A DNA stretch of 64,000 bases from Corallococcus macrosporus DSM 14697 (GTDB lineage: Bacteria; Myxococcota; Myxococcia; Myxococcales; Myxococcaceae). Every line of letters begins with the position of its first letter. Positions within the stretch are counted from its first letter, which is position 1. Shown here piece by piece: positions 17,985 through 20,009 of the stretch. The notes beneath the pieces are model-generated. The model was not told where the DNA came from, did no database searches, and was given only the letters and a program-made list of their open reading frames with translations. Location of the stretch: the NCBI RefSeq assembly GCF_002305895.1, contig NZ_CP022203.1, positions 8,280,001-8,344,000 on the forward strand, in the 5' to 3' direction. A program made the position numbers and the translations under genes.

Positions 17985-20009
17985 ATGCGGCTACACTGGA
18001 GTCGTCCCCTGGCGGTTTCGAGTACCTTGCTTGGCGCCCTGGTCGCGGCGCAGGCGGCAGCAGCGGAGCCGTTGCCGCTGCTGGACATCGCCCCCATCCG
18101 CGCGCCGTTCGCGGCGGCCTGTGCGGGCAAACCGGATTCCACCCCGCTACCCATCGACGCGCGCACCCTGGTGGTGCCCGGCGTCAACAAGCCGGGCGCC
18201 GCGGTGCAGTTCAACGCCTACTGGGTGGACCTGCATTCACCGCCGCCGCCCTTCATCTCCAACCTGCCGCCCAATCCGAAGACGTGCGGCGAGTTCCGCG
18301 CGAGCGCCCACCGCGGCCGGGTGAACATGGAGACGCGGGCCTACTTCCAGCCCTTCACGACGTCGCTGGCCTACTACAACATGTATCGCCAATGGGGCTA
18401 TCTCTTCCGCCCCTCGGACTTCGACGAGCAGATCATCAACCGCTACGGGCTCTCCAAGGCGCCCTTCCGCAATCCCTACCCGCTGCCGTGGGAGAACCCC
18501 AACCTCACCAACGGCGGCAGCGGCCAGCTCCCGCTGGGCCTGGTGCAGGAGCGCGACAAGCACGGCCGCTTCACGGGGATGATTGCCTCCAGTTGCTCGG
18601 GCTGCCACGACTCGAAGCTGGGCAACGACCAGGAGTCGTCCTTCGTCTGGGGACGCTCCACGGACGCCAGCGACCCGGGCCTCATCCAGTCCGACATGTT
18701 CCGCTCCACCGTCGTGGGCAACGTGTTCCAGCTCGTCCCCGTGCCCTGGAGCGTGGGCCGCGGCATGAGTGACGCCATCGGCATCGTGGACCTGCTGCCC
18801 GCCCTCTTCGACATGGACTCCCTGGCGCTGGCCCCCAGCCTGCTGGAGTACTTCCCCACCCACGCTGGCGGCATGTCCCGCGCGCCCAACTGGTGGTACC
18901 GCGCCTTCAAGACGCGCCAGTTCTGGGACGGCGCGCTCACCTCGGACAACGTCCGCTCGGAGATGGCGTTCGGCATCGCCAACATCGGCCGCTCGCCCGC
19001 CGAGCGCCGCGCGCTCACCGTGGAGTTCGAGGACAACGACAACTTCTTCCTCTCCCTCTCTCCCCCCGTCTACCCCAAGCCCATCAACACCGCGCTCGCC
19101 GAGCAGGGCGCCATCCTCTTCCACGAGCGCGACCTCTGGGCCAACGGCGCCAACCCGGACATCCCCAAGGCGCCCGGCAACGGCTCGTGCGCGAGCTGCC
19201 ACGGCGTCTACTCGCCGCGCTACGCGGCCAACCCCGCCTACCTGCCGGACCCGCGCCTCAAGGGCATCTCCGGCGTCATCACGCCCATTGAGACCATCCG
19301 GACCGACCCGGCCCGCAAGGACTTGATGGCGGACGAGCGCAAGCGCCGGGCCTGGAACACGTCCTTCCTGGCCTACAACGACATGCACCCCGACCACGGG
19401 CCCTTCTACGACGACCCCATCATGAGCGCCCTGCGCCGCGTGCCCCGCGCCGCATATGACCGCGGCACGGGCCCCATCTACTCGCCCGAGGGGCCGAACA
19501 TCTGGATTGAGCCGTTCGGCTACATCGCGCCGCCGCTCTACGGCGCGTGGGCCTCCGCCCCCTACTTCCACAACAGCAGCGTGCCCACCCTGTGGGACGT
19601 GCTGAAGCCGTCCGACCGGCCCAAGGTGTGGCAGCGCCAGCAGACGGCGCCCAACAACCTGGGCACCAACGCCGGCTACGCCATGGACTTCGCGGCGTAT
19701 GACTTCAACAAGCTCGGCTGGAAGGTGACGCGCCTGGCCTGCGGCGACGTGCCCAGCAGGGACCCGTTCATCCCGTGCAGCCAGCACATGGCGACCATCG
19801 ACGTCGCCTTCGCCAACATCGCCAACCTGGTGGCCAACTACAACTCGCTGGCCTACCAGTCACCGCCGCCCATCACCCAGAAGCAGATTCGCTCCCGCAT
19901 GATATTCAACTCGCACCTCTACGGGCTCGGCAACGAAGGCCACGACTTCAACCAGTCGCTCACCGACGACGAGCGCTGGGCCATCATCGAATACGTGAAG
20001 ACGCTCTGA
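17985..20009 (+). CDS. Dihaem c-type cytochrome, RoxA/RoxB-like rubber oxygenase family
   Basis: 674 residues. The ATG has GGAGGG eight bases upstream and opens a Sec signal peptide (SSTLLGALVAAQAAAAEP). Two c-type haem motifs are present, CSGCH at 204-208 and CASCH at 402-406. Their spacing of 198 residues, overall length and N-terminal position match the secreted dihaem rubber oxygenases RoxA/RoxB, whose motifs lie near 191 and 390. Homologues are known in several myxobacteria. The segment between them (NWWYRAFKTRQFWDGA) and the late YGAWASAPYFHNSSVPTLWD also fit the MauG/di-haem peroxidase superfamily. The role would be extracellular dioxygenase cleavage of poly(cis-1,4-isoprene) to aldehyde/ketone oligo-isoprenoids. 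A MauG-like or other di-haem oxidase remains possible. Confidence 0.85.
   Translation: MRLHWSRPLAVSSTLLGALVAAQAAAAEPLPLLDIAPIRAPFAAACAGKPDSTPLPIDARTLVVPGVNKPGAAVQFNAYWVDLHSPPPPFISNLPPNPKTCGEFRASAHRGRVNMETRAYFQPFTTSLAYYNMYRQWGYLFRPSDFDEQIINRYGLSKAPFRNPYPLPWENPNLTNGGSGQLPLGLVQERDKHGRFTGMIASSCSGCHDSKLGNDQESSFVWGRSTDASDPGLIQSDMFRSTVVGNVFQLVPVPWSVGRGMSDAIGIVDLLPALFDMDSLALAPSLLEYFPTHAGGMSRAPNWWYRAFKTRQFWDGALTSDNVRSEMAFGIANIGRSPAERRALTVEFEDNDNFFLSLSPPVYPKPINTALAEQGAILFHERDLWANGANPDIPKAPGNGSCASCHGVYSPRYAANPAYLPDPRLKGISGVITPIETIRTDPARKDLMADERKRRAWNTSFLAYNDMHPDHGPFYDDPIMSALRRVPRAAYDRGTGPIYSPEGPNIWIEPFGYIAPPLYGAWASAPYFHNSSVPTLWDVLKPSDRPKVWQRQQTAPNNLGTNAGYAMDFAAYDFNKLGWKVTRLACGDVPSRDPFIPCSQHMATIDVAFANIANLVANYNSLAYQSPPPITQKQIRSRMIFNSHLYGLGNEGHDFNQSLTDDERWAIIEYVKTL

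Follow-up and report, generated by a model that had tools for sequence, protein, structure and literature searches.

The rubber oxygenase gene roxA of Corallococcus macrosporus DSM 14697 and a candidate polyisoprene-catabolic regulon around a common palindrome

In Gram-negative rubber degraders, the fate of the product formed by the rubber oxygenase RoxA is an unresolved question. The DNA analysed here (the window) is a stretch of 64,000 nucleotides from the Corallococcus macrosporus DSM 14697 genome, which consists of one contig of 8,973,512 bases. In this window, a rubber oxygenase-like gene lies close to genes for an aldehyde dehydrogenase, an acyl-CoA ligase and β-oxidation enzymes. The locus thus raises the question of whether these genes are mere neighbours or serve a common pathway, starting from the following gene:

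17985..20009, plus strand: roxA, RoxA-type di-haem rubber oxygenase, 674 amino acids (1276 bits with the RoxA model; 65% identity to 4b2n)

All 674 codons of this frame are open, and the CxxCH haem sites expected at 204 and 402 were recovered in it as C204-S-G-C-H208 (CSxCH type) and C402-A-S-C-H406. The N-terminus, MRLHWSRPLAVSSTLLGALVAAQAAAAEP, resembles a Sec signal peptide when judged by eye. With the NCBIfam RoxA model the protein scored 1275.9 bits (cut-off 1000); the scores with RoxB (496.6 bits) and RoxC (607.7 bits) were below their cut-offs of 900, as were those with NCBIfam CytoC_perox (99 bits, cut-off 150) and Pfam CCP_MauG (19.9 bits, cut-off 25.6). The sole PDB sequence match was 4b2n, RoxA of strain 35Y (E=1.6e-295), with 64.7% identity across 655 residues. 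In the alignment to 4b2n, the haem-1 ligand H195 and the haem-2 ligand H394 are kept, as are the pocket residues A251, I252, F301, W302, A316 and F317, and the substitutions L254I and I255V are conservative. Among active rubber oxygenases F317 and W302 are strictly conserved, and they are absent from some RoxC members (2024 review). A phylogeny against RoxA, RoxB, MauG and peroxidases had been proposed as a check. In a quick tree of 50 proteins, for which the program gave a long-branch warning, the protein falls inside the RoxA group, on a branch marked 98* with 4b2n and 38 other RoxAs, and this group lies apart from two paralogue groups and from di-haem peroxidase-like outgroups; RoxB likewise falls outside it.

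Because the RoxA model is passed, 4b2n is matched, the active-site residues are kept and the tree position agrees, the window protein is, by its sequence, a RoxA, a known family with expressed myxobacterial members. The original RoxA/RoxB-like call was thus correct as to a rubber oxygenase and narrows to RoxA; RoxB and RoxC were ruled out by scores and tree position. No second protein of the RoxA, RoxB or RoxC type was found in the genome. We take DSM 14697 to be a close relative of strain HW-1, whose RoxA was characterised. Orthologues of Corallococcus, Myxococcus fulvus and Haliangium cleave polyisoprene to ODTD, with a specific activity below that of RoxA35Y (PMC6311187), and the same cleavage would be expected of the window RoxA. 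Myxobacterial RoxAs were, as cited there, already published by Birke et al. in 2013.

Beyond roxA, the genes are on the minus strand. They begin with Lp503, whose end is 71 bases past roxA, and continue with ALDH, FadB, thiolase, ACAD1, ACAD2, ligase, SDR, TetR and ECH. From the promoter end, the genes facing roxA are:

32385..33227, minus strand: ECH, enoyl-CoA hydratase (PRK08260 type), the operon's first gene, ATG at 33227; lost where roxA is lost
31726..32406, minus strand: TetR-family regulator (FasR-like), the candidate for control of the regulon; residues 20-70 (HTH) 94% conserved in 31 genomes
30896..31729, minus strand: SDR oxidoreductase (PRK08278 type)
28988..30826, minus strand: acyl-CoA ligase (AcsL), FadD11-like; in exactly the 33 roxA genomes
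27817..28953, minus strand: acyl-CoA dehydrogenase 2 (ACAD2); in exactly the 33 roxA genomes
26659..27807, minus strand: acyl-CoA dehydrogenase 1 (ACAD1)
25416..26627, minus strand: thiolase (PRK08242); stays in genomes without roxA
23198..25453, minus strand: FadB-like hydratase/dehydrogenase; stays in genomes without roxA
21798..23174, minus strand: aldehyde dehydrogenase (ALDH, MdlD-like); orthologues above 80% identity in 29 of the 33 genomes with roxA and in 4 of the other 63

The gene spacing suggests that ECH to ALDH form one operon, convergent with roxA and therefore not co-transcribed with it. The adjoining ALDH, ligase and β-oxidation operon originally predicted is thus real, but it does not form a transcription unit with the oxygenase gene.

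Some neighbouring genes were set aside. Lp503, a 503-aa lipoprotein-like ORF (20080-21591) without a Pfam or NCBIfam match, occupies the position between roxA and ALDH in no more than a few close relatives; it was rejected as a regulon member, being present in some genomes with and in some without roxA. The RegB/RegA-type two-component genes upstream of roxA (15105-17152) were rejected as a general roxA regulator because they lie beside roxA in close relatives only. Just past the promoter end of the operon, at 33936-35368, there is a pair of a SitA6-type lipoprotein toxin and its SitI6 immunity protein.

To describe how roxA and the operon are inherited, co-occurrence was analysed in 96 Myxococcaceae genomes. 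RoxA scored above the model cut-off in 33 of them, and orthologues of the ligase and of ACAD2 were found in exactly these 33 (Fisher p=1.7e-26), while FadB orthologues occur in 52. On a tree of FadB and thiolase, two genes of the same locus as the operon, the roxA state changed at least ten times. In independent pairs on well-supported (starred) branches of this tree, the ligase tracked roxA in 8 of 8 cases (p=0.0078) and ALDH in 6.6 of 8 on average. Linkage alone is insufficient to explain the co-occurrence, since five genomes possess the operon although roxA is 25-62 kb away from it or on a different contig.

A comparison of 23 loci retrieved by RoxA similarity showed that the operon adjoins roxA in Myxococcus, Corallococcus and Hyalangium, with a varying opposite flank. 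In the case of Archangium, it lies a few kb from roxA in reversed orientation. Gene order is retained in most roxA genomes. In the case of Nannocystis, three ACADs, different from those of the window, begin 10 bases after roxA on its strand, and next come a ligase and an ALDH of different subfamilies (24-41% identity to the window's). A different gene set with the same functions beside roxA is independent support for the pairing. The co-conservation asked about in the original prediction is thereby seen, and the pairing in inheritance is strict for the ligase and ACAD2, but FadB and thiolase are not specific to roxA. As a strict partner of roxA, ALDH is weakened: it is missing in 4 of the 33 roxA genomes and present in 4 of the 63 others.

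Important insight can be gained from relatives without roxA. In these genomes the genes from ACAD1 to ECH (ACAD1, ACAD2, ligase, SDR and ECH) are gone save for short remnants, FadB and thiolase stay, and several also keep Lp503 and ALDH. In G065 and G076, with the roxA-bearing G077 as reference, all sequence past a point inside ACAD1 is separately missing, and the intervening stretch from Lp503 to thiolase is 95-97% identical. Because this stretch persists between the two missing parts, roxA and the upstream half of the operon were lost by separate deletions that go hand in hand.

Loci of this kind also preserve details of the losses. In G065 (L025) and G076 (L027), roxA is gone nearly exactly from start to stop codon, with about 70 bases in its place and the operator left. 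In the Corallococcus-type genome G019 (L060), roxA is absent but the TetR gene and one operator persist, with remnants only of ACAD1, ECH and ALDH, as if the locus had been caught mid-loss.

A further tie is found in the upstream regions of roxA and of ECH, which both contain a 24 bp palindrome of roughly CTTRTTGNCA-NNN-TGCCAAYAAG:

17943..17966, plus strand: operator-like palindrome upstream of roxA (CTTGTTGTCATAGTGCCAATAAGC); strict core in 29 of 33 orthologous roxA upstream regions
33267..33290, minus strand: operator-like palindrome upstream of ECH (ACTATTGACACTTCGCCAATAAGT), containing a -35-like TTGACA; strict core in 22 of 30 orthologous upstream regions

A position weight matrix trained on the roxA sites alone gave scores of 42.7 (roxA) and 26.7 (ECH) at these sites; the next-best unrelated place in the 64 kb scored -4.3, and among 40 random sequences used as a null the highest score was 10.7. 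Across the whole genome (8.97 Mb), the exact palindrome occurs only before roxA, before ECH and, as a third perfect site at 109,300, before an operon resembling the Lva genes of levulinic acid catabolism. A fourth candidate (G000:C1:5036554), with one mismatch and inside an open frame, was taken as chance. Exact sites are present in 33 of 33 roxA genomes (148 strand hits), as against 15 hits in the other 63, and a reversed-pattern control gave no match in the roxA genomes. Orphan palindromes were seen in three genomes without roxA (G065, G076 and G019). The true roxB genes of relatives are preceded by the palindrome as well (L084, L085, L087, L089 and L092). It is absent upstream of a RoxB-like third group (L083, L086 and L088), and the operator search at the Nannocystis and Minicystis loci found nothing. 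The link between roxA and the operon, first drawn from proximity, now also has this palindrome, common to roxA, the operon, relatives' roxB and the Lva-like operon, and near the promoters of all proposed regulon members. The RoxB-like third group also has no equivalents of F317 and W302, and L083 scores 777 bits, below the RoxB cut-off.

The regulon is probably under the control of the TetR protein encoded in the operon, whose binding to the palindrome is predicted from co-occurrence: in the loci examined, the presence pattern of its gene nearly equals that of roxA. Palindromes of such size near promoters suit TetR dimers, and the inclusion of the TTGACA hexamer in the ECH promoter suits a repressor. 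Upstream of the palindromes there is a second conserved element, TGACGC-N4-CGT. It precedes the roxA palindrome by 51-52 bp in 27 of 33 genomes, and the ECH palindrome by 47-61 bp in 16 of 30; in the window it is exact at 33321-33333 and degenerate at about 17898-17911. This element is possibly an activator site, and its conservation makes at least one more regulator likely.

The third palindrome lies outside the window (L093:9298-9321), about 100 bases upstream of an operon encoding an SDR, an ACAD, an APH-type kinase and a 120-aa DUF6285 protein. In the Lva pathway, LvaD reduces levulinyl-CoA, LvaA and LvaB phosphorylate the product, and LvaC yields 3-hydroxyvaleryl-CoA (PMC6692424, PMC11342911). 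The Lva composition is found here in one operon: next to the SDR there is an ACAD10/11-like ACAD, with ACAD11 as its best PDB match, and an APH-family kinase that resembles the ACAD11 kinase domain, and by position the DUF6285 protein may correspond to LvaB. The operon thus has an Lva-type make-up, and conversion of levulinyl-CoA is predicted for it.

The location of this module varies. In Corallococcus-type genomes it and the ECH operon diverge from an operator that lies between them, in G043 it lies beside roxA, and in five Myxococcus genomes it is unlinked and has its own operator. Of the 33 roxA genomes, 16 have an orthologue of the kinase (E<1e-100), compared with none of the 63 others; a close LvaA-like orthologue is accordingly absent from 17 of the 33. 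In some other roxA genomes the operator stands before a zinc alcohol dehydrogenase with a GXWXG/DUF4334 protein, and a search of the window genome found no close orthologue of this dehydrogenase.

Altogether, we consider it likely that roxA, the operon and the Lva-like operon form a polyisoprene-catabolic regulon. The gene identities, the active site, the coupled gain and loss and the palindrome are observations; catalysis, TetR binding, inducer and substrate are the predicted part, and would combine as follows. The operon's ALDH, or another enzyme in its stead, would turn the aldehyde of ODTD (12-oxo-4,8-dimethyltrideca-4,8-dien-1-al in its published structure) into the acid, from which the ligase would form the CoA ester. 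ACAD1/2, ECH, FadB, thiolase and perhaps the SDR would then run β-oxidation, yielding from ODTD 2 acetyl-CoA, 2 propionyl-CoA and a terminal 4-oxopentanoyl-(levulinyl-)CoA. This end point is our own derivation from the ODTD structure; that β-oxidation should end in levulinyl-CoA would explain a ligase-less Lva-like module in a RoxA regulon. The Lva-like operon would reduce the C5 remnant, phosphorylate it and eliminate the phosphate, as LvaD, LvaA/B and LvaC do on levulinic acid. The TetR-family protein would repress roxA, its own operon and the Lva-like operon via the common palindrome, and would be released by an acyl-CoA intermediate. For the complete scheme, in which a single regulator governs RoxA (and RoxB where present), ALDH, ligase, β-oxidation and a dedicated levulinyl-CoA module, we hold a somewhat lower expectation, on the favourable side of even.

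Some points count against the regulon model. The branched unsaturated chain should need a 2,4-dienoyl-CoA reductase and an α-methylacyl-CoA racemase, and under the operator no recognisable gene for either, or for an uptake system, was found. ALDH is loosely coupled, and the LvaA-like orthologue is missing in half of the roxA genomes. Extracellular oxidation is expected in the 35Y genome paper (PMC5979037), in contrast to the window ALDH, on which no signal peptide was seen. The claim of a near-complete polyisoprenoid catabolic locus is supported by coupled gain and loss and by the palindrome, while rubber activity itself is carried over from orthologues.

Other explanations for these observations differ strongly in their probability. 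That the window protein is a MauG or a bacterial di-haem cytochrome c peroxidase has a negligible chance of being right: the peroxidase core fold is common to RoxA (2024 review) and a weak CCP_MauG match exists below its cut-off, but CytoC_perox gives 99 bits (below 150) where RoxA gives 1276, and the tree puts the protein with RoxA. Only slightly less remote is a coincidence in which roxA merely adjoins an ordinary β-oxidation operon, as the occurrence of FadB and thiolase in many genomes without roxA and the convergent, not co-transcribed arrangement could suggest. Against it stand the occurrence of ligase and ACAD2 in precisely the roxA genomes, the coupled loss through separate deletions and the rare palindrome common to roxA and the operon, and a chance neighbourhood was rejected on the co-occurrence and independent-pair results.

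The remaining two readings keep the regulon and are unlikely to a similar, lesser degree. The natural substrate could be another polyisoprenoid, such as plant polyprenols, squalene-like lipids or isoprenoid lipids of prey, with the same chemistry and the same levulinyl-CoA end. The lower activity of myxobacterial RoxAs compared with RoxA35Y (PMC6311187) would fit this, as would a regulon common in a predatory soil bacterial family (33 of 96 genomes); the cleavage of polyisoprene to ODTD by the orthologues named above points instead to rubber, as does the same palindrome at relatives' roxB, the endo-acting partner. Likewise, the operator could be read by a regulator encoded elsewhere, the operon's TetR protein having another target. 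TetR binding is a prediction, and the TGACGC-N4-CGT element hints at a further regulator, but the TetR gene lies inside the operon with nearly the presence pattern of roxA, and palindrome size and promoter position favour a TetR dimer. The rubber regulon under the operon's own TetR protein is therefore the reading we retain.

Regarding known systems, RoxA and its presence in myxobacteria are already known; what is new is the genomic context, that is the operon, the palindrome and the Lva-like link. In identity (65% to 35Y), haem sites, active-site residues and clade, the window protein is like RoxA of Steroidobacter cummioxidans 35Y (4b2n) and the myxobacterial RoxAs and shows no difference in kind; the window genome is without roxB. 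The reviews consulted do not mention the neighbouring catabolic genes or the shared operator. In our literature search, neither this operon nor the palindrome had been reported, levulinyl-CoA did not figure in rubber breakdown, and nothing linked rubber with levulinate; an earlier notice of the gene order is possible. The rubber pathway predicted for 35Y has the same order of steps, from Rox cleavage through aldehyde oxidation and CoA ligation to β-oxidation (PMC5979037). There, general homology guided the choice of genes and the enzyme that oxidises the aldehyde was given as unknown, whereas here genes are named by co-inheritance and operator.

As far as the consulted parts of the sources go (PMC7413915, PMC8235351), the actinobacterial lcp-oxiAB clusters with TetR/LcpR are alike in a rubber oxygenase, nearby aldehyde-oxidising genes and a TetR-type regulator, such regulators binding the oxygenase promoters at lcp clusters. 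They differ in the unrelated oxygenase Lcp and in the molybdenum hydroxylase OxiAB where the window has ALDH, and neither a whole β-oxidation operon nor an Lva-like module was seen in those parts. Pseudomonas putida KT2440 lvaABCDE and mammalian ACAD10/ACAD11 share with the L093 unit the SDR, the ACAD10/11-like ACAD, the APH-family kinase and a small protein (PMC6692424, PMC11342911). Unlike lvaABCDE, the L093 unit has no LvaE ligase, and levulinyl-CoA would arrive as the CoA ester; the P. putida regulator is the activator LvaR, whereas the L093 operon is tied to roxA by the operator.

If the model is true, the keto end of every rubber fragment would be consumed by an ACAD10/11-type phosphorylation route, which was not linked to rubber in the literature searched, with levulinyl-CoA as the predicted end point of the pathway. 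As co-inheritance and the shared operator tie specific genes to roxA, each step is testable by single gene deletions. In addition, the arrangement points to an inducible pair of regulator and promoter, for which oligo-isoprenoids may be the signal.

Minor observations were made in related loci. A contig labelled Comamonas sp. KCTC 72670 (L002) carries a Myxococcus locus with genes mostly 85-96% identical; the record seems mislabelled, since its genome (G066) belongs to the same genus as the window. In the Nannocystis pusilla assembly, the RoxA frame (L022:10001-12021) is apparently broken by a frameshift. Upstream of Nannocystis roxA, another RoxA-like cytochrome c domain protein (L017:5774-7426) is encoded beside a DUF3556 membrane protein.
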